Part shown: piece by piece, positions 1-64,000 of the stretch
Layout of the letters: each line of letters opens with the position of its first letter
How positions within the stretch are numbered: the stretch's first letter is position 1
Source of the DNA: Sinohyriopsis cumingii
Lineage: Eukaryota; Mollusca; Bivalvia; Unionida; Unionidae
Assembly: GCA_028554795.2 (NCBI GenBank)
Contig: CM068839.1
Span: forward strand, 87,689,540 to 87,753,539
DNA length: 64,000 nucleotides
Direction: 5' to 3'
Position numbers and translations under genes: made by a program
Notes under the pieces: model-generated
The model's database searches: none
Seen by the model: the letters and a program-made list of their open reading frames with translations, nothing else
What the model was told of the DNA's origin: nothing

Positions 1-361
1 CGAGATCAAGCGAGATCCCTCTGTAATTATTACAGTCACTGAGGTCGCCATTGTTTTTGTAAACGGTATCTCGCGCATGTCTTGGGGATCCGCTCCTTCC
101 TCCCAGCAGAGACAAAGTAGCTCATGCAGTGGCTGAAGCAATGTTTGTTTCCCACGTTCGATAGCTTCGGGCGGGATGATGTCACTACCTGGTGCTTTGT
201 CGTTTGGGAGGGAGTCAATTGCTTTGCTGAGCTCCTCTAAGGTGGGCACTTTGTTGAGCTCGTCCATGGTTAGCAGTTTTTATGCTGCTAGGGGCCGCAT
301 CGGTGACTGACATTTCTTGGTAGTATAGCTCTAGGTAGTGTTCCACCCATCTGGCCATCTG
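1..361 (-). mobile_element. LINE fragment C0, partial
   Basis: This is the upstream part of the C-type RT piece. The window starts inside the 10-bp duplication, so the motif A end is off the left edge. It is of the MDELNKVPT class, as in C2, C6 and C7. Confidence 0.88.
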
Positions 362-773
362 TCATACTTAATGCAAAATAATGGTGAAAGACAAACGTTA
401 ATTCAAATAAAGCATCGCACACATACACACGAATGCAACAAGTGTATACAGACATGATGTCTTCCGTCGTCATACTATATACACCGGCTAATCAACAATA
501 ACTACTTAAAAGTGTTTAATTCAATTTTTAAATTCACAAAAAATGTGAGAAATAAAATAAAACTCAAGAAATCTTTATTTGTTGGTATTCTGCTGCGTAA
601 CAAATGGAACGTAACGCCCAGTGTAATTTCGACAATTTAGAACAAATCTTCATATGCGACAAAAAGATTTCAAAGAAACTATATATGTAATCTTTACTGG
701 TTCGATCTACAAGTAAATAACTCCAGGATTCAGTTTATGGTGTACATTTCAAAAGGAAATGGGATGAAATTAT
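362..773. other. Shortened AT-rich spacer of C units
   Basis: About 410 bp, equivalent to the second half of the A and B spacers. It starts at the deletion junction (ggccatctg joined to tcatacttaatgc) and includes the CA-rich cacacatacacacg near 418. No gene is recognised. The same stretch lies about 580-990 bp after each C start (for example 6556-6967 and 12750-13161). Confidence 0.85.
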
Positions 774-1172
774 CTCGAAGTAATTGTAAGCAAAGTGTAC
801 TAAAAGATTACATAGCTCGCCTCTTTGAAGTAATTATAAACAATGTAATAAACGAGTATGTATCTCAACTATTTGATGTAATTGAAACCAGAGTATTAAA
901 GCCGAGTAAATATCTCAACTCGTTGAAGTAACTGTATAACTGTAAAAAGAGTAATAAATAAGTATATATCTCAATTCTCTGAAGTAATTGTAACCAAAAT
1001 ACAATAAATGATTACATAGCTCATCTCTTCAAGGTAATTGTAACTAGTCTAATAAACTGTTACATATCTCAGCTATTCCAAGCAATTGTAAACAAAATGT
1101 AATAAATAACAGCTTAGATGACCTCTTCGATGCATTTAATAGTCTTCAGTTTACATAATAAAAACTAATTAT
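774..1172 (+). repeat. 50-bp minisatellite, 8 degenerate copies (end of C0)
   Basis: Eight tandem degenerate copies begin at about 774, 821, 869, 919, 975, 1025, 1073 and 1123; lengths are 47-56 bp, mostly 48-50. The shared core is ctcTNgaagtaattgtaac followed by an AT-rich half ending tatctca or catagctc. The last copy is the most decayed and runs into the LINE edge at 1174. An equivalent block occupies roughly the 400 bp before every monomer start in the array, so there are over 30 blocks in the window. No coding or RNA-gene signal is visible. Confidence 0.85.
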
Positions 1173-1173
1173 C

Positions 1174-2165
1174 ATGCAGGTCAATGGTCTTGGTGAGTTC
1201 AATGAACATCATGTAGAGTGGTTGACCTTGCTCTGTGTTCTTCTCTTGGAGTTGTCGTATGGAAAAGATCATGTCTGTCGTCGACCTGCCTGCTTTAAAG
1301 CCGCACTGGGATTCCAGGTGCACACGGTCCACCAGCAACTGCAGCCTGTTGAGTATAATGCGGGAATACACTTTGCCAACGATGCTCCGAAGCGAGATCC
1401 CTCTGTAATTATTACAGTTACTGAGGTCGCCATTGTTTTTGTAAACGGTATCTCGCGCATATCTTGGAGGACCGCTCCTTTCCTCCCAGCAGAGACAAAG
1501 TAGCTCATGCAGCAGCTGAAGCAATGTTGGTTTCCCACGTTCGATAGCTTTGGGCGGGATGCTGTCACTACATGGTGCTTTGTCGTTTGGGACGGAGTCG
1601 ATTGCTTTGTTGAGCTCCTCTAAGGTGGGCACTTTGTGGAGCTCCTCTATGGTGGGCAGTTTTTATGCTGTTAGGGCTTCATCGGTGACTGACATTTCTT
1701 GGGAGCATAGCTCTGAGTAGTGTTCCACCCATCTGGCCATCTGTTGCTCGCAGTCAGTGATCTCCTCTCCCGTCAGAGATTTCTGGCGGACGATCCCTTT
1801 CACCATAGGGTCTAGAGCCTTCTTGATATCACAGTACATACCTTGGATGTTTCCGGATTCGGCACTGCGCTGGAGTCCTTCACATAGTTGTTACCAGTAC
1901 TCGTTCGCGCACTGTCTAGCGATGTGTTGGGTGTTGCTTCGAGCGCTTGTGAGGTCAGCAAGCATCCGTTCATTAGGGCATTTTTTGTAAGCTTTGAAGG
2001 CTTTTCATTTGTCTTCGATTATTGGTTCTATCCTTGATAGATGTGCGCTGAACTAGTGCCAAACGTGGCCATGGCTGTGCTGTAGATGACACCCTTCATG
2101 GCGCTCCACATGACTGTGGCATCGTGATCTGGCAGGTCTTGGAGTGCCTGGTCCAGGGCTAGTAT
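1174..2165 (-). mobile_element. LINE fragment A1 (linker and RT start)
   Basis: On the minus strand this is an internal piece of a non-LTR retrotransposon ORF2-like polyprotein. The RT part is open from 1632 down to 1165 (155 codons), with the blocks APCSDSIPPKAIERGKP, NCNNYRGISL, ESQCGFKAGRSTTDMIF and a motif A relic FIELTKTIDL. It stops just after motif A, so motif C (the F/YADD block), the thumb and the C-terminus are absent. The linker is visible up to about 2165 (LALDQALQDLPDHDATVMW). The catalytic Asp of motif A is Glu here. Relative to B, A lacks about 22 bp in the linker near 2056. Stops and frame changes separate linker and RT, so this is a dead fragment. The RT blocks resemble a RTE-like family widespread in aquatic animals (from memory, unsearched). 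Confidence 0.9.
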
Positions 2166-3174
2166 GAGAATACAAGAGTATATCACAATTATGCTCATGC
2201 AGCTCTGAGATTTTTTCAGAGACGTACGAAAATTCAATCAAAATCCAATTAAACATTTTATAATTTCATTTGTATTAAATGTTCTAATTCGAGGTTATTA
2301 AAAGCTTATTACATGAATAAACTGCACAATTTTGCAGGTGCCACATTTTACTTAAATAAAAACAGACACCATGAAAAAGGAAAAATCAGCCAGATATATT
2401 CATATATTACCAAAACATAATGCAAATAGACTTTTTTTTATATAAATTATTACAAAAAGTGCACATGTAAGATTTATAAATTCTTTGGTTGATCTTTTTT
2501 ATTCTGGCTGTGTCATACAGGAAATGTTTTTTAAACTAAACAGGCATTGGATATTGAAAATCAATTATAATCCTTATTATTGCAGCATATATACTTGTCA
2601 ATTATTCTGGCCAAGCATTATGCTATAAGAATTGCATTGCATAAATGGAAATATATTGTACTGCAAACCCACTTCCTCACATCCGACCCTGTTATCTGTT
2701 CAATGAATGTATTCTACAAGTATCCTCAATGGCATGAATATCGGTTTTCTTTGAAATGTTTCAAACTTAATGCAAAATAACGGTGAAAGACAAACGTTAA
2801 TTCAAATAAAGCATCACACACATACACACGAATGCAACAAGTGTATACAGACATGATGTCTTCCTTCGTCATACTATATACACCGGCTGATCAACAATAA
2901 CTACTTAAAAGTGTTTTATTCAATTGTTAAATATGTAAAACATTTGAGAAATACAATAAAACCCAAGAAATTTGTATTTGTTGGTATTCCACAGCGTGAC
3001 AAATGGAACGTAATTCCCAGTGTAATTTCGACAATTTAGAACAAATCTTCATAACCAACAAAAAGATTTCAAAGAAACTATATATGTAATCTTTACTGGT
3101 TCGATCTACAAGTAAATAGCTGCAGGATTCAGTTAATGGTGTACATTTCAAAAGGGAAATGGGATGAAAATGTC
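2166..3174. other. AT-rich spacer of A units
   Basis: About 1 kb of AT-rich DNA lies between the LINE edge and the minisatellite. It holds homopolymer runs (for example the T run near 2430), a short CA-rich stretch (cacacacatacacac near 2815) and no recognisable gene, tRNA or promoter. It is homologous to the B spacer but carries an A-specific insert of roughly 23 bp (aatgttttttaaactaaac near 2523). Short open frames here (66 and 88 codons) recur only because the copies are homogenised. The same spacer follows each A LINE piece, about 992-2000 bp after the A start. Confidence 0.85.
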
Positions 3175-3572
3175 TCGAAGTAATTGTAACCAAAGTGTAC
3201 TAAAAGATCACATAGCTCGCCTCTTTGAAGTAATTATAAACAATGTAATAAACAAGTACGTATCTCAACTCTCTGATGTCATTGAAACCAGAGTACTAAA
3301 GCCGAGTAAATATCTCAACTCGGTGAAGTAACTGTATAACTGTAACAAGAGTAATAAATGAGTATATACTTCAACTCTCTGAAGTAATTGTAACCAAAGT
3401 ACAATAAATGATTACATAGCTCATCTCTTCAAGGTAATGGTAACTAGACTAATAAACTATTACATATCTCAGCTCTTCCAAGCAATTGTAAACAAAATGT
3501 AATAAATAACAGCTTAGATCACCTCTACGATGCATTTAATAGTCTTCAATTTACATAATAAAAACTAATTAT
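3175..3572 (+). repeat. 50-bp minisatellite block (end of A1)
   Basis: This has the same eight-copy structure as at 774-1172, with A-specific bases such as tatacttcaactctctg near 3363 and cacctctacg near 3520. Within a block the copies are much more different from each other than corresponding copies in successive monomers, so the 50-bp amplification is older than the 2.4-kb amplification. Confidence 0.85.
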
Positions 3573-3573
3573 C

Positions 3574-4590
3574 ATGCAGGTCAAAGGTCTTGGTGATTTC
3601 GATGAACATCATGTAGAGTGGTTGACCTTGCTCTGTGTTCTTCTCTTGGAGTTGTCGTATGGAAAAGATCATGTCTGTCGTCGACCTGCCTGCTTTAAAG
3701 CCGCACTGGGATTCCAGGTGCACACGGTCCGCCAGCAACTGCAGCCTGTTGAGTATAATGCGGGCATACACTTTGCCAACGATGCTCAGAAGCGAGATCC
3801 CTCTGTAGTTATTACAGTCACTGAGGTCGCCATTGTTTTTGTAAACGGTATCTCGCGCATATCTTGGGGGACCGCTCCTTTCCTTCCAGCAGAGACAAAG
3901 TAGCTCATGCAGCGGCTGAAGCAATGTTGGTTTCCCACGTTCTATAGTTTTGGGCGGGATGCTGTCACTACCTGGTGCTTTGTCGTTTGGGTGGGAGTCG
4001 ATTGCTTTGCTGAGCTCCTCTAAGGTGGGCACTTTGTCGAGCTCATCCATGGTGGGCAGTTTTTATGCTGCTAGGGGCCGCATCGGTGACTAGCATATCC
4101 TGGGAGTATAGCTCTGAGTAGTGTTCCACCCATCTGGCCATCTGTTGCTCACAGTCAGTGATCTCCTCTCCCCTCAGAGATTTCCGGGGAACGGCCCCTT
4201 TCACCGTAGGGCCTAGAGCCTTCTTGATACCACAGTACATACCTTGGATGTTTCCGGACTCGGCAGTGTGCTGGAGTCCTTCACATAGTTGTTACCAGTA
4301 CTCGTTCGCGCACTGTCTAGCGATTGTGTTGGGTGTTGCTTCGAGCACTTCTGAGATCAGCAAGCGTCCGTCCATTAAGGCATTTTTTTGTAACGTTTGA
4401 AGGCTTTTCGTTTGTCTTCGATTATTGGTTCCATCCTTGATAGATGTGCGTTGAACCAGTCCTGGCTGGGCCGTTCCTTTTTGCCAAACATGGCCATGGC
4501 TGTGCTGTAGATTGCACCCTTCATGGCGTTCCACATGGCTGTGGCATCGTGGTCTGGCAGTTCCTGGAGTGTCTGGTCCAGGGCTAGTAT
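3574..4590 (-). mobile_element. LINE fragment B1, longest version (linker and RT start)
   Basis: Read on the minus strand from 4590 down, the linker begins ILALDQTLQELPDHDATAMW and continues GKKERPSQDWFNAHLSRMEP, KRKAFKRYKK, then (after a frame change at the seven-T run 4383-4389) ISEVLEATPNTIARQCANEYW. A stop follows the final W. The frame resumes with GMYCGIKKALGPTVKG and QQMARWVEHYSELYSQD. After another frame change the RT part is open from 4050 to 3565 (161 codons): MDELDKVPTLEELSKAIDS, KAPGSDSIPP, CNNYRGISLLSIVGKVYARI, ESQCGFKAGRSTTDMIF and motif A FIEITKTFDL. The segment KERSGPPRYAR is out of the ancestral frame, where C units read EEGADPQDMRE. Endonuclease, motif C and 3' end are missing; no poly-A tail or target-site duplication is seen at the edges. 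Confidence 0.92.
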
Positions 4591-5576
4591 GACAATACAA
4601 GAGTATATCACAATTCTACTAGTGCAGCTCTGAGATTGTTTCAGAGACGTACGACCATTCAATCAAAATGCAATTAAACATTTTATAATTTGATTGGTAT
4701 TGAATGTTCTAGTTCGAGGTTATCAAAAGCAAATTACATGAAAGAACTGCACAATTCTGCAGGTGCCACATTTTACTTATATAAACACATGTACCATGGA
4801 AAAGGAAAAAAATAGCCAAATAGATTCATATATTACCAAAACATAATGCAAATAGACTTTTTTTAAATATAAATTATTACAAAAAGTGCACGTGTAAGAT
4901 TTATAAATTCTTTGATTGATCTTTTTTATTCTGGCTGTGTCATACAGCAGTTGGATATTTAAAATCAGTTATAATCCTTATTACTGCAGCATATATACTT
5001 GTTAATTATTCTGACCAAGCATTATGCTATGAGAATTGCATTGCATAAATGGAAATATATTGTACTGCAAACCCACTTCCTCACATCCGACCCTGTTATC
5101 TGTTCAATGAATGTATTCTACAAGTATGCTCAGTGGCATGAATATGTGTTTTCTCTGAAATGTTTCAAACTTAATGCAAAATAATGGTGAAAGACAAACG
5201 TTAATTCAAATAAAGCATCACACACATACACACGAATGCAACAAGTGTATACAGACAGGATGTCTTTCTTTGTCATACTATTTACACCGATAAATCAACA
5301 ATAACTACTTAAAAGTGTTTTATTCAATTTTTAAATTCGGAAAAATGTGAGAAATACAATAAAACTCAAGAAATATTTATTTGTTGGTATTCCGCAGCGT
5401 GACAAATGGAACGTAACGCTCAGTGTAATTTCGACAATTTAGAACAAATGTTCATAACCGACAAAAAGATTTCAAAGAAACTATATATGTAATCTTTACT
5501 GGTTCGATCTACAAGTAAATAGCTGCAGGATTCAGCTAATGGTGTACATTTCAAAAGGGAAATGGGATGAAATTGT
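4591..5576. other. AT-rich spacer of B units
   Basis: This is homologous to the A spacer, without the 23-bp insert (catacagcagttgg near 4942). It contains the splice-acceptor-like ttattactgcag near 4979 followed by a cysteine-containing short frame that is interrupted in most copies. No gene is recognised. The same spacer follows each B LINE piece, about 1017-2000 bp after the B start. Confidence 0.85.
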
Positions 5577-5974
5577 CTCGAAGTAATTGTAACCAAAGTG
5601 TACTAAAAGATCACATAGCTCGCCTCTTTGAAGTAATTATAAACAATGTAATAAACAAGTACGTATCTCAACAATTTGATGTAATTGTAACCAGAGTACT
5701 AAAGCCGAGTAAATATCTCAACTCGTGGAACCAACTGTATAACTGTAAGAAGAGTAATAAATGAGTATATATCTCAACTCTCTGAAGTAATTGTAACCAA
5801 AGTACAATAAATGATTACATAGCTCATCTCTTAGAGGTAATTGTAACTAGTCTAATAAACTATTACATATCTCAGCTCTTCCAAGCAATTGTAAACAAAA
5901 TGTAATAAATAACAGCTTAGATGACCTCTTCGATGCATTTAATAGTCTTCAGTTTACATAATAAAACTAATTAT
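5577..5974 (+). repeat. 50-bp minisatellite block (end of B1)
   Basis: Same structure, with B-specific bases such as catctcttagagg near 5825 and one A fewer just before the LINE edge (cataataaaacta near 5956). In B8 to B11 the second copy carries the right-domain variant aaaaaatgtaaaaaccgag. Confidence 0.85.
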
Positions 5975-5975
5975 C

Positions 5976-6555
5976 ATGCAGGTCAAAGGTCTTGGTGATT
6001 TCGATGAACATCATGTAGAGTGGTTGACCTTGCTCTGTGTTCTTCTCTTGGAGTTGTCGTATGGAAAATATCCTGTCTATCGTCGACCTGCCTGCATTAA
6101 AGCCGTACTGGGATTCCAGGTGCACACTGTCCGCCAGCAACTGCAGCCTGTTGAATATAATGCGGGCATACACGTTGCCAACGATGCTCAGAAGCGAGAT
6201 CAAGCGAGATCCCTCTGTAATTATTACAGTCACTGAGGTCGCCATTGTTTTTGTAAACGGTATCTCGCGCATGTCTTGGGGATCCGCTCCTTCCTCCCAG
6301 CAGAGACAAAGTAGCTCATGCAGTGGCTGAAGCAATGTTTGTTTCCCACGTTCGATAGCTTCGGGCGGGATGATGTCACTGCCTGGTGCTTTGTCGTTTG
6401 GGAGGGAGTCGATTGCTTTGCTGAGCTCCTCTAAGGTGGGCACTTTGTCGAACTCATCCATGGTGGGCAGTTTTTATGCTGCTAGGGGCCGCATCGGTGA
6501 CTGACATTTCTTGGGAGTATAGCTCTAGGTAGTGTTCCACCCATCTGGCCATCTG
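5976..6555 (-). mobile_element. LINE fragment C1 (RT start only)
   Basis: C units keep only the RT end of the LINE piece. The frame is open from 6461 down to 5967 (164 codons): MDEFDKVPTLEELSKAIDS, APGSDIIPPEAIERGK, CWEEGADPQDMRE, then out of frame (IPFTKTMATSVTVIITEG), then back in frame at ISLLSIVGNVYARIIFN thanks to a 10-bp tandem duplication (aagcgagatc at 6192-6201 and 6202-6211). Motif A reads FIEITKTFDL. The linker is cut at about 6555, where ggccatctg joins directly to tcatacttaatgc of the spacer. The 10-bp duplication and this deletion junction are diagnostic of C units. Confidence 0.9.
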
Positions 6556-7367
6556 TCATACTTAATGCAAAATAATGGTGAAAGACAAACGTTAATTCAA
6601 ATAAAGCATCGCACACATACACACGAATGCAACAAGTGTATACAGACATGATGTCTTCCGTCGTCATACTATATACACCGGCTAATCAACAATAACAACT
6701 TAAAAGTGTTTAATTCGATTTTTAAATTCACAAAAAATGTGAGAAATAAAATAAAACTCAAGAAATCTTTATTTGTTGGTATTCTGCAGCGTAACAAATG
6801 GAACGTAACGCCCAGTGTAATTTCGACAATTTAGAACAAATCTTCATATGCGACAATAAGATTTCAAAGAAACTATATATGTAATCTTTACTGGTTCGAT
6901 CTACAAGTAAATAACTCCAGGATTCAGTTTATGGTGTACATTTCAAAAGGAAATGGGATGAAATTATCTCGAAGTAATTGTAAGCAAAGTGTACTAAAAG
7001 ATTACATAGCTCGCCTCTTTGAAGTAATTATAAACAATGTAATAAACGAGTATGTATCTCAACTATTTGATGTAATTGAAACCAGAGTATTAAAGCCGAG
7101 TAAATATCTCAACTCGTTGAAGTAACTGTATAACTGTAAAAAGAGTAATAAATAAGTATATATCTCAATTCTCTGAAGTAATTGTAACCAAAATACAATA
7201 AATGATTACATAGCTCATCTCTTCAAGGTAATTGTAACTAGTCTAATAAACTGTTACATATCTCAGCTATTCCAAGCAATTGTAAACAAAATGTAATAAA
7301 TAACAGCTTAGATGACCTCTTCGATGCATTTAATAGTCTTCAGTTTACATAATAAAAACTAATTATC

Positions 7368-8359
7368 ATGCAGGTCAATGGTCTTGGTGAGTTCAATGAA
7401 CATCATGTAGAGTGGTTGACCTTGCTCTGTGTTCTTCTCTTGGAGTTGTCGTATGGAAAAGATCATGTCTGTCGTCGACCTGCCTGCTTTAAAGCCGCAC
7501 TGGGATTCCAGGTGCACACGGTCCACCAGCAACTGCAGCCTGTTGAGTATAATGCGGGAATACACTTTGCCAACGATGCTCCGAAGCGAGATCCCTCTGT
7601 AATTATTACAGTTACTGAGGTCGCCATTGTTTTTGTAAACGGTATCTCGCGCATATCTTGGAGGACCGCTCCTTTCCTCCCAGCAGAGACAAAGTAGCTC
7701 ATGCAGCAGCTGAAGCAATGTTGGTTTCCCACGTTCGATAGCTTTGGGCGGGATGCTGTCACTACATGGTGCTTTGTCGTTTGGGACGGAGTCGATTGCT
7801 TTGTTGAGCTCCTCTAAGGTGGGCACTTTGTGGAGCTCCTCTATGGTGGGCAGTTTTTATGCTGTTAGGGCTGCATCGGTGACTGACATTTCTTGGGAGC
7901 ATAGCTCTGAGTAGTGTTCCACCCATCTGGCCATCTGTTGCTCGCAGTCAGTGATCTCCTCTCCCGTCAGAGATTTCTGGCGGACGATCCCTTTCACCAT
8001 AGGGTCTAGAGCCTTCTTGATATCACAGTACATACCTTGGATGTTTCCGGATTCGGCACTGCGCTGGAGTCCTTCACATAGTTGTTACCAGTACTCGTTC
8101 GCGCACTGTCTAGCGATGTGTTGGGTGTTGCTTCGAGCGCTTCTGAGATCAGCAAGCATCCGTTCATTAGGGCATTTTTTGTAAGCTTTGAAGGCTTTTC
8201 ATTTGTCTTCGATTATTGGTTCTATCCTTGATAGATGTGCGCTGAACTAGTGCCAAACGTGGCCATGGCTGTGCTGTAGATGACACCCTTCATGGCGCTC
8301 CACATGACTGTGGCATCGTGATCTGGCAGGTCTTGGAGTGCCTGGTCCAGGGCTAGTAT
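7368..8359 (-). mobile_element. LINE fragment A2
   Basis: A-type piece with the RT part open from 7826 to 7359 (155 codons), motif A FIELTKTIDL and the A-specific 22-bp linker deletion. It differs from A1 by ggctgcatcgg near 7869 and gcttctgagatc near 8139. Confidence 0.9.
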
Positions 8360-9767
8360 GAGAATACAAGAGTATATCACAATTATGCTCATGCAGCTCT
8401 GAGATTTTTTCAGAGACGTACGAAAATTCAATCAAAATCCAATTAAACATTTTATAATTTCATTTGTATTAAATGTTCTAATTCGAGGTTATTAAAAGCT
8501 TATTACATGAATAAACTGCACAATTTTGCAGGTGCCACATTTTACTTAAATAAAAACAGACACCATGAAAAAGGAAAAATCAGCCAGATATATTCATATA
8601 TTACCAAAACATAATGCAAATAGACTTTTTTTTATATAAATTATTACAAAAAGTGCACATGTAAGATTTATAAATTCTTTGGTTGATCTTTTTTATTCTG
8701 GCTGTGTCATACAGGAAATGTTTTTTAAACTAAACAGGCATTGGCTATTGAAAATCAATTATAATCCTTATTATTGCAGCATATATACTTGTCAATTATT
8801 CTGGCCAAGCATTATGCTATAAGAATTGCATTGCATAAATGGAAATATATTGTACTGCAAACCCACTTCCTCACATCCGACCCTGTTATCTGTTCAATGA
8901 ATGTATTCTACAAGTATCCTCAATGGCATGAATATCGGTTTTCTTTGAAATGTTTCAAACTTAATGCAAAATAACGGTGAAAGACAAACGTTAATTCAAA
9001 TAAAGCATCACACACATACACACGAATGCAACAAGTGTATACAGACATGATGTCTTCCTTCGTCATACTATATACACCGGCTGATCAACAATAACTACTT
9101 AAAAGTGTTTTATTCAATTGTTAAATATGTAAAACATTTGAGAAATACAATAAAACCCAAGAAATTTGTATTTGTTGGTATTCCACAGCGTGACAAATGG
9201 AACGTAATTCCCAGTGTAATTTCGACAATTTAGAACAAATCTTCATAACCAACAAAAAGATTTCAAAGAAACTATATATGTAATCTTTACTGGTTCTATC
9301 TACAAGTAAATAGCTGCAGGATTCAGTTAATGGTGTACATTTCAAAAGGGAAATGGGATGAAAATGTCTCGAAGTAATTGTAACCAAAGTGTACTAAAAG
9401 ATCACATAGCTCGCCTCTTTGAAGTAATTATAAACAATGTAATAAACAAGTACGTATCTCAACTATTTGATGTCATTGAAACCAGAGTACTAAAGCCGAG
9501 TAAATATCTCAACTCGGTGAAGTAACTGTATAACTGTAACAAGAGTAATAAATGAGTATATACTTCAACTCTCTGAAGTAATTGTAACCAAAGTACAATA
9601 AATGATTACATAGCTCATCTCTTCAAGGTAATGGTAACTAGTCTAATAAACTATTACATATCTCAGCTCTTCCAAGCAATTGTAAACAAAATGTAATAAA
9701 TAACAGCTTAGATGACCTCTTCGATGCATTTAATAGTCTTCAGTTTACATAATAAAAACTAATTATC

Positions 9768-10784
9768 ATGCAGGTCAATGGTCTTGGTGAGTTCAATGAA
9801 CATCATGTAGAGTGGTTGACCTTGCTCTGTGTTCTTCTCTTGGAGTTGTCGTATGGAAAAGATCATGTCTGTCGTCGACCTGCCTGCTTTAAAGCCGCAC
9901 TGGGATTCCAGGTGCACACGGTCCACCAGCAACTGCAGCCTGTTGAGTATAATGCGGGCATACACTTTGCCAACGATGCTCAGAAGCGAGATCCCTCTGT
10001 AGTTATTACAGTCACTGAGGTCGCCATTGTTTTTGTAAACGGTATCTCGCGCATATCTTGGAGGACCGCTCCTTTCCTTCCAGCAGAGACAAAGTAGCTC
10101 ATGCAGCGGCTGAAGCAATGTTGGTTTCCCACGTTCTATAGCTTTGGGCGGGATGCTGTCACTACCTGGTGCTTTGTCGTTTGGGTGGGAGTCGATTGCT
10201 TTGCTGAGCTCCTCTAAGGTGGGCACTTTGTCGAGCTCATCCATGGTGGGCAGTTTTTATGCTGCTAGGGGCCGCATCGGTGACTAGCATATCCTGGGAG
10301 TATAGCTCTGAGTAGTGTTCCACCCATCTGGCCATCTGTTGCTCACAGTCAGTGATCTCCTCTCCCCTCAGAGATTTCCGGGGAACGGCCCCTTTCACCG
10401 TAGGGCCTAGAGCCTTCTTGATACCACAGTACATACCTTGGATGTTTCCGGACTCGGCACTGTGCTGGAGTCCTTCACATAGTTGTTACCAGTACTCGAT
10501 CGCGCACTGTCTAGCGATTGTGTTGGGTGTTGCTTCGAGCACTTCTGAGATCAGCAAGCGTCCGTCCATTAAGGCATTTTTTTGTAACGTTTGAAGGCTT
10601 TTCGTTTGTCTTCGATTATTGGTTCCATCCTTGATAGATGTGCGTTGAACCAGTCCTGGCTGGGCCGTTCCTTTTTGCCAAACATGGCCATGGCTGTGCT
10701 GTAGATTGCACCCTTCATGGCGTTCCACATGGCTGTGGTATCGTGGTCTGGCAGGTCCTGGAGTGTCTGGTCCAGGGCTAGTAT
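9768..10784 (-). mobile_element. LINE fragment B2
   Basis: B-type piece, RT part open from 10244 to 9759 (161 codons). Its last codons are A-like (VDRVHLES, FIELTKTIDL) while the upstream part is B-like, so the copy looks like a product of exchange or conversion with an A unit. Confidence 0.9.
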
Positions 10785-12169
10785 GACAATACAAGAGTAT
10801 ATCACAATTCTACTAGTGCAGCTCTGAGATTGTTTCAGAGACGTACGACCATTCAATCAAAATGCAATTAAACATTTTATAATTTGATTGGTATTGAATG
10901 TTCTAGTTCGAGGTTATCAAAAGCAAATTACATGAAAGAACTGCACAATTCTGCAGGTGCCACATTTTACTTATATAAACACATGTACCATGGAAAAGGA
11001 AAAAAATAGCCAAATAGATTCATATATTACCAAAACATAATGCAAATAGACTTTTTTTAAATATAAATTATTACAAAAAGTGCACGTGTAAGATTTATAA
11101 ATTCCTTGATTGATCTTTTTTATTCTGGCTGTGTCATACAGCAGTTGGATATTTAAAATCAGTTACAATCCTTATTACTGCAGCATATATACTTGTTAAT
11201 TATTCTGACCAAGCATTATGCTATGAGAATTGCATTGCATAAATGGAAATATATTGTACTGCAAACCCACTTCCTCACATCCGACCCTGTTATCTGTTCA
11301 ATGAATGTATTCTACAAGTATGCTCAGTGGCATGAATATGTGTTTTCTCTGAAATGTTTCAAACTTAATGCAAAATAATGGTGAAAGACAAACGTTAATT
11401 CAAATAAAGCATCACACACATACACACGAATGCAACAAGTGTATACAGACAGGATGTCTTTCTTTGTCATACTATTTACACCGATAAATCAACAATAACT
11501 ACTTAAAAGTGTTTTATTCAATTTTTAAATTCGGAAAAATGTGAGAAATACAATAAAACTCAAGAAATATTTATTTGTTGGTATTCCGCAGCGTGACAAA
11601 TGGAACGTAACGCTCAGTGTAATTTCGACAATTTAGAACAAATGTTCATAACCGACAAAAAGATTTCAAAGAAACTATATATGTAATCTTTACTGGTTCG
11701 ATCTACAAGCAAATAGCTGCAGGATTCAGCTAATGGTGTACATTTCAAAAGGGAAATGGGATGAAATTGTCTAGAAGTAATTGTAACCAAAGTGTACTAA
11801 AAGATTACATAGCTCGCCTCTTTGAAGTAATTATAAACAATGTAATAAACGAGTATGTATCTCAACAATTTGATGTAATTGTAACCAGAGTACTAAAGCC
11901 GAGTAAATATCTCAACTCGTTGAAGCAACTGTATAACTGTAAGAAGAGTAATAAATGAGTATATATCTCAACTCTCTGAAGTAATTGTAACCAAAGTACA
12001 ATAAATGATTACATAGCTCATCTCTTAGAGGTAATTGTAACTAGTCTAATAAACTATTACATATCTCAGCTCTTCCAAGCAATTGTAAACAAAATGTAAT
12101 AAATAACAGCTTAGATGACCTCTTCGATGCATTTAATAGTCTTCAGTTTACATAATAAAACTAATTATC

Positions 12170-51744: not shown

Positions 51745-53128
51745 GACAATACAAGAGTATATCACAATTCTACTAGTGCAGCTCTGGGATTGTTTCAGAG
51801 ACGTACGACCATTCAATCAAAATGCAATTAAACATTTTATAATTTGATTGGTATTGAATGTTCTAGTTCGAGGTTATCAAAAGCAAATTACATGAAAGAA
51901 CTGCACAATTCTGCAGGTGCCACATTTTACTTATATAAACACATGTACCATGGAAAAGGAAAAAAATAGCCAAATAGATTCATATATTACCAAAACATAA
52001 TGCAAATAGACTTTTTTTAAATATAAATTATTACAAAAAGTGCACGTGTAAGATTTATAAATTCTTTGATTGATCTTTTTATTCTGGCTGTGTCATACAG
52101 CAGTTGGATATTTAAAATCAGTTATAATCCTTATTACTGCAGCATATATACTTGTTAATTATTCTGACCAAGCATTATGCTATGAGAATTGCATTGCATA
52201 AATGGAAATATATTGTACTGCAAACCCACTTCCTCACATCCGACCCTGTTATCTGTTCAATGAATGTATTCTACAAGTATGCTCAGTGGCATGAATATAT
52301 GTTTTCTCTGAAATGTTTCAAACTTAATGCAAAATAATGGTGAAAGACAAACGTTAATTCAAATAAAGCATCACACACATACACACGAATGCAACAAGTG
52401 TATACAGACAGGATGTCTTTCTTTGTCATACTATTTACACCGATAAATCAACAATAACTACTTAAAAGTGTTTTATTCAATTTTTAAATTCGGAAAAATG
52501 TGAGAAATACAATAAAACTCAAGAAATATTTATTTGTTGGTATTCCGCAGCGTGACAAATAGAACGTAACGCTCAGTGTAATTTCGACAATTTAGAACAA
52601 ATGTTCATAACCGACAAAAAGATTTCAAAGAAACTATATATGTAATCTTTACTGGTTCGATCTACAAGTAAATAGCTGCAGGATTCAGCTAATGGTGTAC
52701 ATTTCAAAAGGGAAATGGGATGAAATTGTCTCGAAGTAATTGTAACCAAAGTGTACTAAAAGATTACATAGCTCGCCTCTTTGAAGTAATTATAAAAAAT
52801 GTAAAAACCGAGTATGTATCTCAACAATTTGATGTAATTTTAACCAGAGTACTAAAGCCGAGTAAATATCTCAACTCGTTGAAGCAACTGTATAACTGTA
52901 ACAAGAGTAATAAATGAGTATATATCTCAACTCTCTGAAGTAATTGTAACCAAAGTACAATAAATGATTACATAGCTCATCTCTTAGAGGTAATTGTAAC
53001 TAGTCTAATAAACTATTACATATCTCAGCTCTTCCAAGCAATTGTAAACAAAATGTAATAAATAACAGCTTAGATGACCTCTTCGATGCATTTAATAGTC
53101 TTCAGTTTACATAATAAAACTAATTATC

Positions 53129-53708
53129 ATGCAGGTCAAAGGTCTTGGTGAGGTCGATGCACATCATGTAGAGTGGTTGACCTTGCTCTGTGTTCTTCTC
53201 TTGGAGTTGTCGTATGGAAAATATCCTGTCTGTCGTCGACCTGCCTGCATTAAAGCCGCACTGGGATTCCAGGTGCACACTGTCCGCCAGCAACTGCAGC
53301 CTGTTGAATATAATGCGGGCATACACGTTGCCAACGATGCTCAGAAGCGAGATCAAGCGAGATCCCTCTGTAATTATTACAGTCACTGAGGTCGCCATTG
53401 TTTTTGTAAACGGTATCTCGCGCATGTCTTGGGGATCCGCTCCTTCCTCCCAGCAGAGACAAAGTAGCTCATGCAGTGGCTGAAGCAATGTTTGTTTCCC
53501 ACGTTCGATAGCTTCGGGCGGGATGATGTCACTACCTGGTGCTTTGTCGTTTGGGAGGGAGTCGATTGCTTTGCTGAGCTCCTCTAAGGTGGGCACTTTG
53601 TCGAACTCATCCATGGTGGGCAGTTTTTATGCTGCTAGGGGCCGCATCGGTGACTGACATTTCTTGGGAGTATAGCTCTAGGTAGTGTTCCACCCATCTG
53701 GCCATCTG
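53129..53708 (-). mobile_element. LINE fragment C9
   Basis: C-type piece, 164 codons open from 53614 to 53120, protein identical to that of C8. Confidence 0.9.
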
Positions 53709-54521
53709 TCATACTTAATGCAAAATAATGGTGAAAGACAAACGTTAATTGACATAAATCATCGCACACATACACACGAATGCAACAAGTGTATACAGAC
53801 ATGATGTCTTCCGTCGTCATACTATATACACCGGCTAATCAACAATAACTACTTAAAAGTGTTTAATTCAATTTTTAAATTCACAAAAAATGTGAGAAAT
53901 ACAATAAAACTCAAGAAATCTTTATTTGTTGGTATTCCGCAGCGTAACAAATGGAACCTAACGCCCAGTGTAATTTCGACAATTTAGAACAAATCTTCAT
54001 ATGCGACAAAAAGATTTCAAAGAAACTATATATGTAATCTTTACTGGTTCGATCTACAAGTAAATAACTCCAGGATTCAGTTTATGGTGTACATTTCAAA
54101 AGGGAAATGGGATGAAATTATCTCGAAGTAATTGTAAGCAAAGTGTACTAAAAGATTACATAGCTCGCCTCTTTGAAGTAATTATAAACAATGTAATAAA
54201 CGAGTATGTATCTCAACTATTTGATGTAATTGAAACCAGAGTATTAAAGCCGAGTAAATATCTCAACTCGTTGAAGTAACTGTATAACTGTAAAAAGAGT
54301 AATAAATAAGTATATATCTCAATTCTCTGAAGTAATTGTAACCAAAATACAATAAATGATTACATAGCTCATCTCTTCAAGGTAATTGTAACTAGTCTAA
54401 TAAACTATTACATATCTCAGCTCTTCCAAGCAATTGTTAACAAAATGTAATAAATAACAGCTTAGATGACCTCTTCGATGCATTTAATAGTCTTCAGTTT
54501 ACATAATAAAAACTAATTATC

Positions 54522-55513
54522 ATGCAGGTCAATGGTCTTGGTGAGTTCAATGAACATCATGTAGAGTGGTTGACCTTGCTCTGTGTTCTTCTCTTGGAGT
54601 TGTCGTATGGAAAAGATCATGTCTGTCGTCGACCTGCCTGCTTTAAAGCCGCACTGGGATTCCAGGTGCACACGGTCCACCAGCAACTGCAGCCTGTTGA
54701 GCATAATGCGGGAATACACTTTGCCAACGATGCTCAGAAGCGAGATCCCTCTGTAATTATTACAGTTACTGAGGTCGCCATTGTTTTTGTAAACGGTATC
54801 TCGCGCATATCTTGGAGGACCGCTCCTTTCCTCCCAGCAGAGACAAAGTAGCTCATGCAGCAGCTGAAGCAATGTTGGTTTCCCACGTTCGATAGCTTTG
54901 GGCGGGATGCTGTCACTACATGGTGCTTTGTCGTTTGGGACGGAGTCGATTGCTTTGTTGAGCTCCTCTAAGGTGGGCACTTTGTCGAGCTCCTCTATGG
55001 TGGGCAGTTTTTATGCTGTTAGGGCTGCATCGGTGACTGACATTTCTTGGGAGCATAGCTCTGAGTAGTGTTCCACCCATCTGGCCATCTGTTGCTCACA
55101 GTCAGTGATCTCCTCTCCCGTCAGAGATTTCTGGCGGACGATCCCTTTCACCATAGGGCCTAGAGCCTTCTTGATATCACAGTACATACCTTGGATGTTT
55201 CCGGATTCGGCACTGCGCTGGAGTCCTTCACATAGTTGTTACCAGTACTCGTTCGCGCACTGTCTAGCGATGTGTTGGGTGTTGCTTCGAGCGCTTCTGA
55301 GATCAGCAAGCATCCGTTCATTAGGGCATTTTTTGTAAGCTTTGAAGGCTTTTCATTTGTCTTCGATTATTGGTTCTATCCTTGATAGATGTGCGCTGAA
55401 CTAGTGCCAAACGTGGCCATGGCTGTGCTGTAGATGACACCCTTCATGGCGCTCCACATGGCTGTGGCATCGTGATCTGGCAGGTCTTGGAGTGCCTGGT
55501 CCAGGGCTAGTAT
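54522..55513 (-). mobile_element. LINE fragment A10
   Basis: A-type piece, RT part open from 54980 to 54513, protein identical to that of A9. Confidence 0.9.
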
Positions 55514-56920
55514 GAGAATACAAGAGTATATCACAATTATGCTCATGCAGCTCTGAGATTTTTTCAGAGACGTACGAAAATTCAATCAAAATCCAATTAA
55601 ACATTTTATAATTTCATTTGTATTAAATGTTCTAATTCGAGGTTATTAAAAGCTTATTACATGAATAAACTGCACAATTTTGCAGGTGCCACATTTTACT
55701 TAAATAAAAACAGACACCATGAAAAAGGAAAAATCAGCCAAATATATTCATATATTACCAAAACATAATGCAAATAGACTTTTTTTTATATAAATTATTA
55801 CAAAAAGTGCACATGTAAGATTTATAAATTCTTTGGTTGATCTTTTTTATTCTGGCTGTGTCATACAGGAAATGTTTTTTAAACTAAACAGGCATTGGAT
55901 ATTGAAAATCAATTATAATCCTTATTATTGCAGCATATATACTTGTCAATTATTCTGGCCAAGCATTATGCCATAAGAATTGCATTGCATAAATGGAAAT
56001 ATATTGTACTGCAAACCCACTTCCTCACATCCGACCCTGTTATCTGTTCAATGAATGTATTCTACAAGTATCCTCAATGGCATGAATATCGGTTTTCTTT
56101 GAAATCTTTCAAACTTAATGCAAAATAACGGTGAAAGACAAACGTTAATTCAAATAAAGCATCACACACATACACACGAATGCAACAAGTGTATACAGAC
56201 ATGATGTCTTCCTTCGTTATACTATATACACCGGCTGATCAACAATAACTACTTAAAAGTGTTTTATTCAATTGTTAAATTTGTAAAACATTTGAGAAAT
56301 ACAATAAAACCCAAGAAATTTGTATTTGTTGGTATTCCACAGCGTGACAAATGGAACGTAATTCCCAGTGTAATATCGACAATTTAGAACAAATCTTCAT
56401 AACCAACAAAAAGATTTCAAAGAAACTATATATGTAATCTTTACTGGTTCGATCTACAAGTAAATAGCTGCAGGATTCAGCTAATGGTGTACATTTCAAA
56501 AGGAAATGGGATGAAATTATCTCGAAGTAATTGTAACCAAAGTGTTCTAAAAGATTACATAGCTCGCCTCTTTGAAGTAATTATAAACAATGTAATAAAC
56601 GAGCATGTATCTCAACTATTTGATGTAATTGAAACCAGAGTATTAAAGCCGAGTAAATATCTCAACTCGTTGAAGTAACTGTATAACTGTAAAAAGAGTA
56701 ATAAATAAGTATATATCTCAATTCTCTGAAGTAATTGTAACCAAAATACAATAAATGATTACATAGCTCATCTCTTCAAGGTAATTGTAACTAGTCTAAT
56801 AAACTATTACATATCTCAGCTCTTCCAAGCAATTGTAAACAAAATGTAATAAATAACAGCTTAGATGACCTCTTCGATGCATTTAATAGTCTTCAGTTTA
56901 CATAATAAAAACTAATTATC

Positions 56921-57937
56921 ATGCAGGTCAATGGTCTTGGTGAGTTCAATGAACATCATGTAGAGTGGTTGACCTTGCTCTGTGTTCTTCTCTTGGAGTT
57001 GTCGTATGGAAAAGATCATGTCTGTCGTCGACCTGCCTGCTTTAAAGCCGCACTGGGATTCCAGGTGCACACGGTCCGCCAGCAACTGCAGCCTGTTGAG
57101 TATAATGCGGGCATACACTTTGCCAACGATGCTCAGAAGCGAGATCCCTCTGTAGTTATTACAGTCACTGAGGTCGCCATTGTTTTTGTAAACGGTATCT
57201 CGCGCATATCTTGGGGGACCGCTCCTTTCCTTCCAGCAGAGACAAAGTAGCTCATGCAGCGGCTGAAGCAATGTTGGTTTCCCACGTTCTATAGCTTTGG
57301 GCGGGATGCTGTCACTACCTGGTGCTTTGTCGTTTGGGTGGGAGTCGATTGCTTTGCTGAGCTCCTCTAAGGTGGGCACTTTGTCGAGCTCATCCATGGT
57401 GGGCAGTTTTTATGCTGCTAGGGGCCGCATCGGTGACTAGCATATCCTGGGAGTATAGCTCTGAGTAGTGTTCCACCCATCTGGCCATCTGTTGCTCACA
57501 GTCAGTGATCTCCTCTCCCCTCAGAGATTTCCGGGGGACGGCCCCTTTCACCGTAGGGCCTAGAGCCTTCTTGATACCACAGTACATACCTTGGATGTTT
57601 CCGGACTCGGCAGTGTGCTGGAGTCCTTCACATAGTTGTTACCAGTACTCGTTCGCGCACTGTCTAGCGATTGTGTTGGGTGTTGCTTCGAGCACTTCTG
57701 AGATCAGCAAGCGTCCGTTCATTAAGGCATTTTTTTGTAACGTTTGAAGGCTTTTCGTTTGTCTTCGATTATTGGTTCCATCCTTGATAGATGTGCGTTG
57801 AACCAGTCCTGGCTGGGCCGTTCCTTTTTGCCAAACATGGCCATGGCTGTGCTGTAGATTGCACCCTTCATGGCGTTCCACATGGCTGTGGCATCGTGGT
57901 CTGGCAGGTCCTGGAGTGTCTGGTCCAGGGCTAGTAT
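56921..57937 (-). mobile_element. LINE fragment B10
   Basis: B-type piece, RT part fully open from 57397 to 56912 (161 codons), the same protein as B7. It lacks the stop seen in its neighbours B8, B9 and B11. Confidence 0.9.
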
Positions 57938-59321
57938 GACAATACAAGAGTATATCACAATTCTACTAGTACAGCTCTGGGATTGTTTCAGAGACGTACG
58001 ACCATTCAATCAAAATGCAATTAAACATTTTATAATTTGATTGGTATTGAATGTTCTAGTTCGAGGTTATCAAAAGCAAATTACATGAAAGAACTGCACA
58101 ATTCTGCAGGTGCCACATTTTACTTATATAAACACATGTACCATGGAAAAGGAAAAAAATAGCCAAATAGATTCATATATTACCAAAACATAATGCAAAT
58201 AGACTTTTTTTAAATATAAATTATTACAAAAAGTGCACGTGTAAGATTTATAAATTCTTTGATTGATCTTTTTATTCTGGCTGTGTCATACAGCAGTTGG
58301 ATATTTAAAATCAGTTATAATCCTTATTACTGCAGCATATATACTTGTTAATTATTCTGACCAAGCATTATGCTATGAGAATTGCATTGCAGAAATGGAA
58401 ATATATTGTACTGCAAACCCACTTCCTCACATCCGACACTGTTATCTGTTCAATGAATGTATTCTACAAGTATGCTCAGTGGCATGAATATGTGTTTTCT
58501 CTGAAATGTTTCAAACTTAATGCAAAATAATGGTGAAAGACAAACGTTAATTCAAATAAAGCATCACACACATACACACGAATGCAACAAGTGTATACAG
58601 ACAGGATGTCTTTCTTTGTCATACTATTTACACCGATAAATCAACAATAACTACTTAAAAGTGTTTTATTCAATTTTTAAATTCGGAAAAATGTGAGAAA
58701 TACAATAAAACTCAAGAAATATTTATTTGTTGGTATTCCGCAGCGTGACAAATGGAACGTAACGCTCAGTGTAATTTCGACAATTTAGAACAAATGTTCA
58801 TAACCGACAAAAAGATTTCAAAGAAACTATATATGTAATCTTTACTGGTTCGATCTACAAGTAAATAGCTGCAGGATTCAGCTAATGGTGTACATTTCAA
58901 AAGGGAAATGGGATGAAATTGTCTCGAAGTAATTGTAACCAAAGTGTACTAAAAGATTACATAGCTCGCCTCTTTGAAGTAATTATAAAAAATGTAAAAA
59001 CCGAGTATGTATCTCAACAATTTGGTGTAATTTTAACCAGAGTACTAAAGCCGAGTAAATATCTCAACTCGTTGAAGCAACTGTATAACTGTAACAAGAG
59101 TAATAAATGAGTATATATCTCAACTCTCTGAAGTAATTGTAACCAAAGTACAATAAATGATTACATAGCTCATCTCTTAGAGGTAATTGTAACTAGTCTA
59201 ATAAACTATTACATATCTCAGCTCTTCCAAGCAATTGTAAACAAAATGTAATAAATAACAGCTTAGATGACCTCTTCGATGCATTTAATAGTCTTCAGTT
59301 TACATAATAAAACTAATTATC

Positions 59322-59901
59322 ATGCAGGTCAAAGGTCTTGGTGAGGTCGATGCACATCATGTAGAGTGGTTGACCTTGCTCTGTGTTCTTCTCTTGGAGT
59401 TGTCGTATGGAAAATATCCTGTCTGTCGTCGACCTGCCTGCATTAAAGCCGCACTGGGATTCCAGGTGCACACTGTCCGCCAGCAACTGCAGCCTGTTGA
59501 ATATAATGCGGGCATACACGTTGCCAACGATGCTCAGAAGCGAGATCAAGCGAGATCCCTCTGTAATTATTACAGTCACTGAGGTCGCCATTGTTTTTGT
59601 AAACGGTATCTCGCGCATGTCTTGGGGATCCGCTCCTTCCTCCCAGCAGAGACAAAGTAGCTCATGCAGTGGCTGAAGCAATGTTTGTTTCCCACGTTCG
59701 ATAGCTTCGGGCGGGATGATGTCACTACCTGGTGCTTTGTCGTTTGGGAGGGAGTCGATTGCTTTGCTGAGCTCCTCTAAGGTGGGCACTTTGTCGAACT
59801 CATCCATGGTGGGCAGTTTTTATGCTGCTAGGGGCCGCATCAGTGACTGACATTTCTTGGGAGTATAGCTCTAGGTAGTGTTCCACCCATCTGGCCATCT
59901 G
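59322..59901 (-). mobile_element. LINE fragment C10
   Basis: C-type piece, 164 codons open from 59807 to 59313, protein identical to those of C8 and C9. Confidence 0.9.
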
Positions 59902-60714
59902 TCATACTTAATGCAAAATAATGGTGAAAGACAAACGTTAATTGACATAAATCATCGCACACATACACACGAATGCAACAAGTGTATACAGACATGATGT
60001 CTTCCGTCGTCATACTATATACACCGGCTAATCAACAATAACTACTTAAAAGTGTTTTATTCAATTTTTAAATTCACAAAAAATGTGAGAAATACAATAA
60101 AACTCAAGCAATCTTTATTTGTTGGTATTCCGGAGCGTAACAAATGGAACCTAACGCCCAGTGTAATTTCGACAATTTAGAACAAATCTTCATATGCGAC
60201 AAAAAGATTTCAAAGAAACTATATATGTAATCTTTACTGGTTCGATCTACAAGTAAATAACTCCAGGATTCAGTTTATGGTGTACATTTCAAGAGGGAAA
60301 TGGGATGAAATTATCTCGAAGTAATTGTAAGCAAAGTGTACTAAAAGATTACATAGCTCGCCTCTTTGAAGTAATTATAAACAATGTAATAAACGAGTAT
60401 GTATCTCAACTATTTGATGTAATTGAAACCAGAGTATTAAAGCCGAGTAAATATCTCAACTCGTTGAAGTAACTGTATAACTGTAAGAAGAGTAATGAAT
60501 AAGTATATATCTCAATTCTCTGAAGTAATTGTAACCAAAATACATTAAATGATTACATAGCTCATCTCTTCAAGGTAATTGTAACTAGTCTAATAAACTA
60601 TTACATATCTCAGCTCTTCCAAGCAATTGTAAACAAAATGTAATAAATAACAGCTTAGATGACCTCTTCGATGCATTTAATAGTCTTCAGTTTACATAAT
60701 AAAAACTAATTATC

Positions 60715-61731
60715 ATGCAGGTCAATGGTCTTGGTGAGTTCAATGAACATCATGTAGAGTGGTTGACCTTGCTCTGTGTTCTTCTCTTGGAGTTGTCGTA
60801 TGGAAAAGATCATGTCTGTCGTCGACCTGCCTGCTTTAAAGCCGCACTGGGATTCCAGGTGCACACGGTCCGCCAGCAACTGCAGCCTGTTGACTATAAT
60901 GCGGGCATACACTTTGCCAACGATGCTCAGAAACGAGATCCCTCTGTAGTTATTACAGTCACTGAGGTCGCCATTGTTTTTGTAAACGGTATCTCGCGCT
61001 TATCTTGGAGGACCGCTCCTTTCCTTCCAGCAGAGACAAAGTAGCTCATGCAGCGGCTGAAGCAATGTTGGTTTCCCACGTTCTATAGCTTTGGGCGGGA
61101 TGCTGTCACTACCTGGTGCTTTGTCGTTTGGGTGGGAGTCGATTGCTTTGCTGAGCTCCTCTAAGGTGGGCACTTTGTCGAGCTCATCCATGGTGGGCAG
61201 TTTTTATGCTGCTAGGGGCCGCATCGGTGACTAGCATATCCTGGGAGTATAGCTCTGAGTAGTGTTCCACCCATCTGGCCATCTGTTGCTCACAGTCAGT
61301 GATCTCCTCTCCCCTCAGAGATTTCCGGGGAACGGCCCCCTTCACCGTAGGGCCTAGAGCCTTCTTGATACCACAGTACATACCTTGGATGTTTCCGGAC
61401 TCGGCAGTGTGCTGGAGTCCTTCACATAGTTGTTACCAGTACTCGTTCGCGCACTGTCTAGCGATTGTGTTGGGTGTTGCTTCGAGCACTTCTGAGATCA
61501 GCAAGCGTCCGTTCATTAAGGCATTTTTTTGTAACGTTTGAAGGCTTTTCGTTTGTCTTCGATTATTGGTTCCATCCTTGATAGATGTGCGTTGAACCAG
61601 TCCTGGCTGGGCCGTTCCTTTTTGCCAAACATGGCCATGGTTGTGCTGTAGATTGCACCCTTCATGGCGTTCCACATGGCTGTGGCATCGTGGTCTGGCA
61701 GGTCCTGGAGTGTCTGGTCCAGGGCTAGTAT
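60715..61731 (-). mobile_element. LINE fragment B11
   Basis: B-type piece in the second short HOR. The RT frame is split by the stop shared with B8 and B9; 68 codons remain at 60912-60706 and 63 at 61191-61000. Motif A is the A-like FIELTKTIDL. Confidence 0.9.
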
Positions 61732-63115
61732 GACAATACAAGAGTATATCACAATTCTACTAGTGCAGCTCTGGGATTGTTTCAGAGACGTACGACCATT
61801 CAATCAAAATGCAATTAAACATTTTATAATTTGATTGGTATTGAATGTTCTAGTTCGAGGTTATCAAAAGCAAATTACATGAAAGAACTGCACAATTCTG
61901 CAGGTGCCACATTTTACTTATATAAACACATGTACCATGGAAAAGGAAAAAAATAGCCAAATAGATTCATATATTACCAAAACATAATGCAAATAGACTT
62001 TTTTTAAATATAAATTATTACAAAAAGTGCACGTGTAAGATTTATAAATTCTTTGATTGATCTTTTTATTCTGGCTGTGTCATACAGCAGTTGGATATTT
62101 AAAATCAGTTATAATCCTTATTACTGCAGCATATATACTTGTTAATTATTCTGACCAAGCATTATGCTATGAGAATTGCATTGCATAAATGGAAATATAT
62201 TGTACTGCAAACCCACTTCCTCACATCCGACACTGTTATCTGTTCAATGAATGTATTCTACAAGTATGCTCAGTGGCATGAATATGTGTTTTCTCTGAAA
62301 TGTTTCAAACTTAATGCAAAATAATGGTGAAAGACAAACGTTAATTCAAATAAAGCATCACACACATACACACGAATGCAACAAGTGTATACAGACAGGA
62401 TGTCTTTCTTTGTCATACTATTTACACCGATAAATCAACAATAACTACTTAAAAGTGTTTTATTCAATCTTTAAATTCGGAAAAATGTGAGAAATACAAT
62501 AAAACTCAAGAAATATTTATTTGTTGGTATTCCGCAGCGTGACAAATGGAACGTAACGCTCAGTGTAATTTCGACAATTTAGAACAAATGTTCATAACCG
62601 ACAAAAAGATTTCAAAGAAACTATATATGTAATCTTTACTTTTTCGATCTACAAGTAAATAGCTGCAGGATACAGCTAATGGTGTACATTTCAAAAGGGA
62701 AATGGGATGAAATTGTCTCGAAGTAATTGTAACCAAAGTGTACTAAAAGATTACATAGCTCGCCTCTTTGAAGTAATTATAAAAAATGTAAAAACCGAGT
62801 ATGTATCTCAACAATTTGGTGTAATTTTAACCAGAGTACTAAAGCCGAGTAAATATCTCAACTCGTTGAAGCAACTGTATAACTGTAACAAGAGTAATAA
62901 ATGAGTATATATCTCAACTCTCTGAAGTAATTGTAACCAAAGTACAATAAATGATTACATAGCTCATCTCTTAGAGGTAATTGTAACTAGTCTAATAAAC
63001 TATTACATATCTCAGCTCTTCCAAGCAATTGTAAACAAAATGTAATAAATAACAGCTTAGATGACCTCTTCGATGCATGTAATAGTCTTCAGTTTACATA
63101 ATAAAACTAATTATC

Positions 63116-63695
63116 ATGCAGGTCAAAGGTCTTGGTGAGGTCGATGCACATCATGTAGAGTGGTTGACCTTGCTCTGTGTTCTTCTCTTGGAGTTGTCGT
63201 ATGGAAAATATCCTGTCTGTCGTCGACCTGCCTGCATTAAAGCCGCACTGGGATTCCAGGTGCACACTGTCCGCCAGCAACTGCAGCCTGTTGAATATAA
63301 TGCGGGCATACACGTTGCCAACGATGCTCAGAAGCGAGATCAAGCGAGATCCCTCTGTAATTATTACAGTCACTGAGGTCGCCATTGTTTTTGTAAACGG
63401 TATCTCGCGCATGTCTTGGGGATCCGCTCCTTCCTCCCAGCAGAGACAAAGTAGCTCATGCAGTGGCTGAAGCAATGTTTGTTTCCCACGTTCGATAGCT
63501 TCGGGCGGGATGATGTCACTACCTGGTGCTTTGTCGTTTGGGAGGGAGTCGATTGCTTTGCTGAGCTCCTCTAAGGTGGGCACTTTGTCGAACTCATCCA
63601 TGGTGGGCAGTTTTTATGCTGCTAGGGGCCGCATCGGTGACTGACATTTCTTGGGAGTATAGCTCTAGGTAGTGTTCCACCCATCTGGCCATCTG
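63116..63695 (-). mobile_element. LINE fragment C11
   Basis: C-type piece, 164 codons open from 63601 to 63107, protein identical to those of C8 to C10. Confidence 0.9.
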
Positions 63696-64000
63696 TCATA
63701 CTTAATGCAAAATAATGGTGAAAGACAAACGTTAATTGACATAAATCATCGCACACATACACACGAATGCAACAAGTGTATACAGACATGATGTCTTCCG
63801 TCGTCATACTATATACACCGGCTAATCAACAATAACTACTTAAAAGTGTTTAATTCAATTTTTAAATTCACAAAAAATGTGAGAAATACAATAAAACTCA
63901 AGAAATCTTTATTTGTTGGTATTCCGCAGCGTAACAAATGGAACGTAACGCCCAGTGTAATTTCGACAATTTAGAACAAATCTTCATATGCGACAAAAAG

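Follow-up and report, generated by a model that had tools for sequence, protein, structure and literature searches.

In human alpha satellite, according to the account given in PMC8122249, the monomers within a higher-order repeat (HOR) are about 70% identical, and the HOR copies can be up to 97 to 100% alike. The same source describes the potato 2D8 pericentric repeat, a 5.9-kb dimer of diverged monomers of about 3 kb each that is related to the rDNA intergenic spacer. The human LTR arrays found on chromosomes 13, 18, 21, and others have monomers of about 3.5 kb made of MaLR fragments, organized into 6-monomer HORs, some of which miss one or three monomers, a loss ascribed there to unequal crossing-over (PMC2588610); that report also mentions megasatellite repeats of 5.4 and about 6 kb with LINEs, or parts of LINEs, inside them. 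Tandem amplification can act on a transposable element as a whole unit or on a segment of it (PMC4107277, in which a whale satellite with L1 similarity is cited), and satellites of Lathyrus derive from LTR elements (PMC7004042). The vole MS3/MS4 complex repeats (PMC5793180) were also considered, and nothing below is built on them.

We analyzed a 64-kb stretch of DNA (the window), the whole of which was found to be a single tandem array running past both of its ends. When the window was compared with itself, the self-match at a shift of 6194 was 55.9%, against a top self-match of 27.3% over shifts of 50 to 31999 in five simulated first-order sequences, which bears out the tandem organization proposed in a preliminary description of this DNA. 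Repeated 24-mers occupied 61,781 of the 63,977 positions in the window and none in the five first-order controls. A TRF run limited to periods of up to 500 bp gave 85 rows, with periods of 27 and 48 to 98 bp only.

Cutting the array at one conserved anchor, with up to five substitutions tolerated, gave 32 anchors and hence 31 complete units, not counting an incomplete C unit at the left end (1 to 366) and the beginning of a further unit cut off at the right end (63701 to 64000). Measured by anchor spacing, the A units are 2399 to 2400 bp long, the B units 2402 to 2405 bp, the C units 1391 bp, and two A/B hybrids 2402 and 2403 bp, as against the spacings of 2400, 2402, and 1392 bp reported earlier. 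The order is A-B-C six times, a hybrid and C, A-B-C three times, and again a hybrid and C, with all of these repeats and the edge pieces given on the plus strand. The left block comprises HOR 0 at 367 to 6560 (A, 367 to 2765; B, 2766 to 5169; C, 5170 to 6560), HOR 1 at 6561 to 12754, HOR 2 at 12755 to 18948, HOR 3 at 18949 to 25144, HOR 4 at 25145 to 31338, and HOR 5 at 31339 to 37533. It is followed by a short repeat of 3793 bp (37534 to 41326), by a right block with HOR 6 at 41327 to 47519, HOR 7 at 47520 to 53713, and HOR 8 at 53714 to 59906, and by a second short repeat of 3794 bp (59907 to 63700). The nine full HORs measure 6193 to 6196 bp. The fixed A-B-C order that had been proposed thus holds in 9 of the 11 complete repeats, but not in the two that consist of a hybrid and a C unit (3.79 kb).

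The anatomy of the monomer can be described on the B unit at 2766 to 5169, which contains an AT-rich spacer, diverged subrepeats of 48 to 50 bp on the plus strand (3175 to 3507; 3337 to 3507 by TRF and 3175 to 3463 by self-shift), a minus-strand reverse transcriptase (RT) piece, broken frames reaching to about 4662, and a second AT-rich spacer. The copy number of the minisatellite appears constant across its counterparts, judging by the lengths of the units, which within each type differ by no more than a few bases. The C unit is a monomer of the A/B type without about 1020 bp of B, and the join left by this internal deletion is exemplified at 6551 to 6561 (plus strand). The RT piece of C is also interrupted, about halfway along, by a short insertion, where the reading frame is lost. 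In a tree built on the 1391 columns common with C, the C units stood apart from the rest with a support of 1.000, and the A and B clades were supported at 0.999 and 0.979, with both hybrids placed weakly beside A (0.605).

The preliminary description had also noted a retrotransposon gene piece in the monomer, which proved real, with its strand corrected to minus. It corresponds to the N-terminal part of a non-LTR reverse transcriptase, at 3565 to 4062 in the B example, with counterparts at 1165 to 1662 in A and at 5967 to 6473 in C, where it is frameshifted in the middle. The Pfam family RVT_1 was matched in B with an E value of 3.7e-9 over profile positions 5 to 80 of 205, in A with 4e-7, and in C with 8e-7, the last being 0.2 bits under the Pfam cut-off. 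In the PDB, LINE-1 ORF2 was matched with an E value of 4.8e-6 by a single sequence and 1.5e-7 by a three-sequence profile; the best row was an 832-residue chain named RNA-directed DNA polymerase (2.7e-6 and 7.9e-8, respectively), and R2 was weaker (0.0063 and 0.084). The RT similarity ends near what we take to be motif A, and most of the enzyme's catalytic portion is therefore missing. The broken minus-strand frames upstream, at 4043 to 4662, had no family above the Pfam cut-off; we take them, from their resemblance to the linkers of LINE ORF2 proteins, to be possibly the linker between endonuclease and RT. The source element may have been a LINE of RTE/CR1-like look. A complete LINE is not present, as RVT_1 is matched over positions 5 to 80 of 205 only, the frames upstream are broken, and no endonuclease family was found among the 35 frames scanned. 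At the start of the RT piece, there is an in-frame duplication of 27 bp (1605 to 1662 and its counterparts), found by TRF in 26 places for the 31 units, which may be part of the source LINE.

The Pfam scan covered 35 frames of at least 60 amino acids in 291 to 6685, out of 51 frames listed for 1 to 9000, and only RVT_1, in A and B, passed the cut-off; the 28 frames other than the RT and upstream ones gave no family above it. The other Pfam matches, up to an E value of 0.1, were far under their cut-offs and were taken as chance. No tRNA was found, and no Rfam family reached its gathering score. The exact core of the CENP-B box, in the pattern that we take it to have, had no match in the window; matches with one mismatch numbered 12, versus a shuffle mean of 3.93, but these represent one site in C that was copied with the array, and the shuffle comparison is therefore uninformative. 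In one stretch of 6194 bp, there were 28 inverted pairs of at least 14 nucleotides, the longest among the 25 shown being 27 nucleotides at 81%, with nothing striking among them. Relatives were found in none of the collections of viral contigs, prokaryote genome contigs, plasmids, and phages, which by their descriptions are non-eukaryotic and say little here. A literature search by words rather than by sequence brought up no recognized description of this repeat, a result that by its nature cannot show the repeat to be undescribed.

The copies of the HOR are far closer to each other than are the monomers within it. The nine full HORs are 98.3 to 99.8% alike, in line with the near-identical copies reported in the preliminary description, while the type consensuses are identical at 94.0% for A and B (2376 columns), 94.6% for A and C (1379 columns), and 94.9% for B and C (1381 columns). 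With gaps disregarded and both hybrids excluded, the mean pairwise identity was 99.23% among the nine A units (98.62 to 100%), 98.79% among the nine B units (97.67 to 100%), and 98.98% among the 11 C units (98.06 to 99.86%). Three diverged variants of a 2.4-kb monomer, as originally described, are distinct in A, B, and C, except that C additionally lacks about 1020 bp. The HORs fall into two blocks, with identities of 99.2 to 99.8% within HORs 0 to 5, 99.1 to 99.6% within HORs 6 to 8, and 98.3 to 98.9% between the two, and the first short repeat (37534 to 41326) lies at the boundary.

In columns of about 700 to 1000, the A and B consensuses are 99 to 100% identical, and functional constraint on this stretch was considered as a cause and rejected: C differs there by 1 to 6%, which makes exchange between A and B the better explanation. 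No 100-column block in columns 0 to 1399 was invariant across all three types. As for base composition, the CpG observed/expected ratio of the whole window was 0.72, and 19 of the 85 transitions between A and B were at CpG sites, above the share expected from the 61 CpG in the 2404-bp B consensus. These values suggest some CpG decay, which would be no more than a weak hint about the host.

Traces of exchange, as would mark an HOR satellite, were found in the two hybrid units and in shared foreign tracts. The hybrids, u18 (37534 to 39935) and u29 (59907 to 62309), recognized from diagnostic sites, are of A type at the left and of B type at the right. With the subtypes of the left half as references, u18 switched within 38368 to 38498 (columns 836 to 967) with 4 misfits among 153 diagnostic sites; for u29 the same columns were obtained, i.e., 60742 to 60872, with 8 misfits. 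With those of the right half, u29 switched within 60518 to 60631 (columns 611 to 724) with 4 misfits among 136 diagnostic sites, and u18 again in the same columns, i.e., 38144 to 38257, with 12 misfits. The whole-type consensuses placed the switch at columns 709 to 967 in u18 and 673 to 693 in u29, and columns 693 and 709 have A-type letters in u18 but not in u29. The two hybrids differ at 28 sites, and a site-by-site check showed a common switch interval to be still possible. Two independent crossovers, which we had first read from the differing best-fit intervals with the local subtypes, were rejected as a necessary reading, since a single common reference gives both hybrids the same interval; the pair may go back to a single event or to two. 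Each hybrid is the product that would be expected from in-register unequal crossing-over deleting one monomer. The foreign tracts consist of a 13-site A-type tract in the B units of all three right-hand HORs and none of the six left-hand ones (44169 to 44399 in HOR 6, 50362 to 50592 in HOR 7, and 56556 to 56786 in HOR 8), and of a 5-site B-type tract in a single A unit (42292 to 42380, in HOR 6).

Within the left block, the even-numbered HORs were unusually alike, with 10 differences between HORs 0 and 2 (all in C), 19 between HORs 2 and 4, and 27 between HORs 0 and 4, as compared with about 39 to 47 differences between neighboring HORs and 33, 35, and 44 in the odd-numbered pairs. The mean differences among HORs 0 to 5 at lags 1 to 5 were 41.8, 26.5, 41.7, 31.0, and 47.0. 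Exact permutation of the six HORs gave values at least as extreme in 28 of 720 arrangements by a lag test and 72 of 720 by a parity test, both of them weak tests. This pattern is suggestive of a second-level unit of 12.39 kb in 367 to 37533, which we do not claim.

The array is very probably a nuclear satellite (megasatellite) array, in which a trimer was amplified and kept uniform by unequal exchange and conversion, with the RT fragment as a passenger. An ancestral monomer of about 2.4 kb would have consisted of an AT-rich spacer, a small minisatellite of 48 to 50 bp, and a dead internal LINE fragment. It would have been duplicated in tandem, and its copies would have diverged to about 5 to 6%; one copy would then have lost about 1 kb to become C, after which amplification would have proceeded by whole A-B-C trimers. 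Gene conversion and unequal crossing-over between copies matched in register would keep the trimers 98 to 100% alike, the crossing-over occasionally deleting a monomer, and such an array would need no coded product. The hybrids, the foreign tracts, and the pattern of identities can be read directly from the sequence, and from them we infer how exchange took place and in which order the historical steps came. The probability of this explanation is independent of whether the two hybrids arose separately. The nuclear location and the eukaryotic origin are suggested by the LINE piece and by the lack of matches in the collections searched, which cover prokaryotes, viruses, phages, and plasmids.

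A frame of about 164 to 167 codons in the RT piece is open in 28 of the 31 copies, which counts against a passenger, although it is expected of young copies. The same open frame would suit a macrosatellite with a functional gene, whose tandem copies would encode a peptide derived from the RT, much as D4Z4 encodes DUX4. The remaining three copies have stops, however, one of them being frameshifted as well, and the C copies are frameshifted in the middle of the piece; the frame stops near the presumed motif A, so that most of the catalytic palm is missing, and the piece upstream is scattered over different frames. When the A piece of HOR 0 was compared with its B piece (20 differences), dN (0.043) was close to dS (0.037), and the codons that differed were nonsynonymous in 15 cases and synonymous in 4, so no purifying selection was seen in this one pair. 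We thus consider a functional gene highly improbable and read the RT piece as a still-young passenger fragment rather than a maintained gene, on a selection test of one pair. Even less probable is that a LINE was serially inserted into its own copies, in a telomere-type or target-specific manner like that of HeT-A/TART, rather than being multiplied by satellite recombination. The piece is indeed present in all 31 units in a single orientation, but it is internal to the element (RVT_1 positions 5 to 80 of 205), its motif-A end falls on one shared anchor in all 31 units, and the C-terminal half of the RT was not found in the 35 frames of HOR 0 and its edges. Moreover, what distinguishes the units is point changes and A/B mosaics rather than 5′ truncations of varying extent.

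An assembly artefact, in which the HOR copies or the two short repeats would result from misassembly, is very unlikely, though not quite as unlikely as the two readings above. What speaks for it is that the A and B units of HORs 0 and 2 are without a difference; against it, the copies bear private and block-specific variants, and the A-type tract is restricted to B units of the right block. Compared with these, a bolder extension of the satellite reading is somewhat less doubtful, although still unlikely: the array might serve its host as the functional centromere, or make up most of a sex chromosome or a supernumerary one, with the 6.19-kb LINE-bearing HOR as its unit and the 12.39-kb level nested above it. 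If this were true, it would be a kilobase-scale counterpart of the alpha-satellite arrays.

A satellite array remains our preferred reading, and as such the locus is a readable case of how a kilobase satellite with a captured LINE piece evolves, as monomer divergence, an internal deletion, HOR amplification, foreign tracts, and crossover products are seen together within one 64-kb stretch. It would carry more weight if the array proved to lie at a centromere or on a sex or B chromosome.

Compared with human alpha satellite as described in PMC8122249, the array has the same ordered diverged monomers and near-identical HOR copies, and the alpha-satellite-like pattern noted at the outset stands in its architecture. 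It does not extend to divergence, which is about 5 to 6% between types here versus monomers about 70% identical there, nor to scale, as the units of 1391 to 2405 bp (1.4 to 2.4 kb, about 94 to 95% identical, and with no exact CENP-B box core) are not 171-bp monomers. Potato 2D8, in the same source, shares the diverged kilobase monomers but has an rDNA-spacer origin in place of a LINE piece. The whale and Lathyrus satellites (PMC4107277 and PMC7004042) are alike by description in that a transposon segment is shared with or turned into a satellite, while the elements and the hosts differ. The human LTR arrays (PMC2588610) resemble the locus, again by description and not by sequence, in their kilobase monomers of retrotransposon fragments, multi-monomer HORs, and losses of whole monomers; they differ in having an MaLR LTR instead of a LINE fragment and six monomers per HOR instead of three. 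In the coding frames, to which our test for MSTA/THE-1 LTRs was confined, RVT_1 was the sole Pfam family above its cut-off among the 35 scanned, and the piece matched LINE-1 ORF2. A kilobase monomer with a retrotransposon piece, taken in the preliminary description as setting this repeat apart, is hence not distinguishing, as the human LTR arrays in that report already have such monomers. From the precedents of the LTR arrays, the megasatellites, 2D8, and the tandemly amplified transposon segments, the organization is therefore of a known kind, and the sequence may represent a new family.
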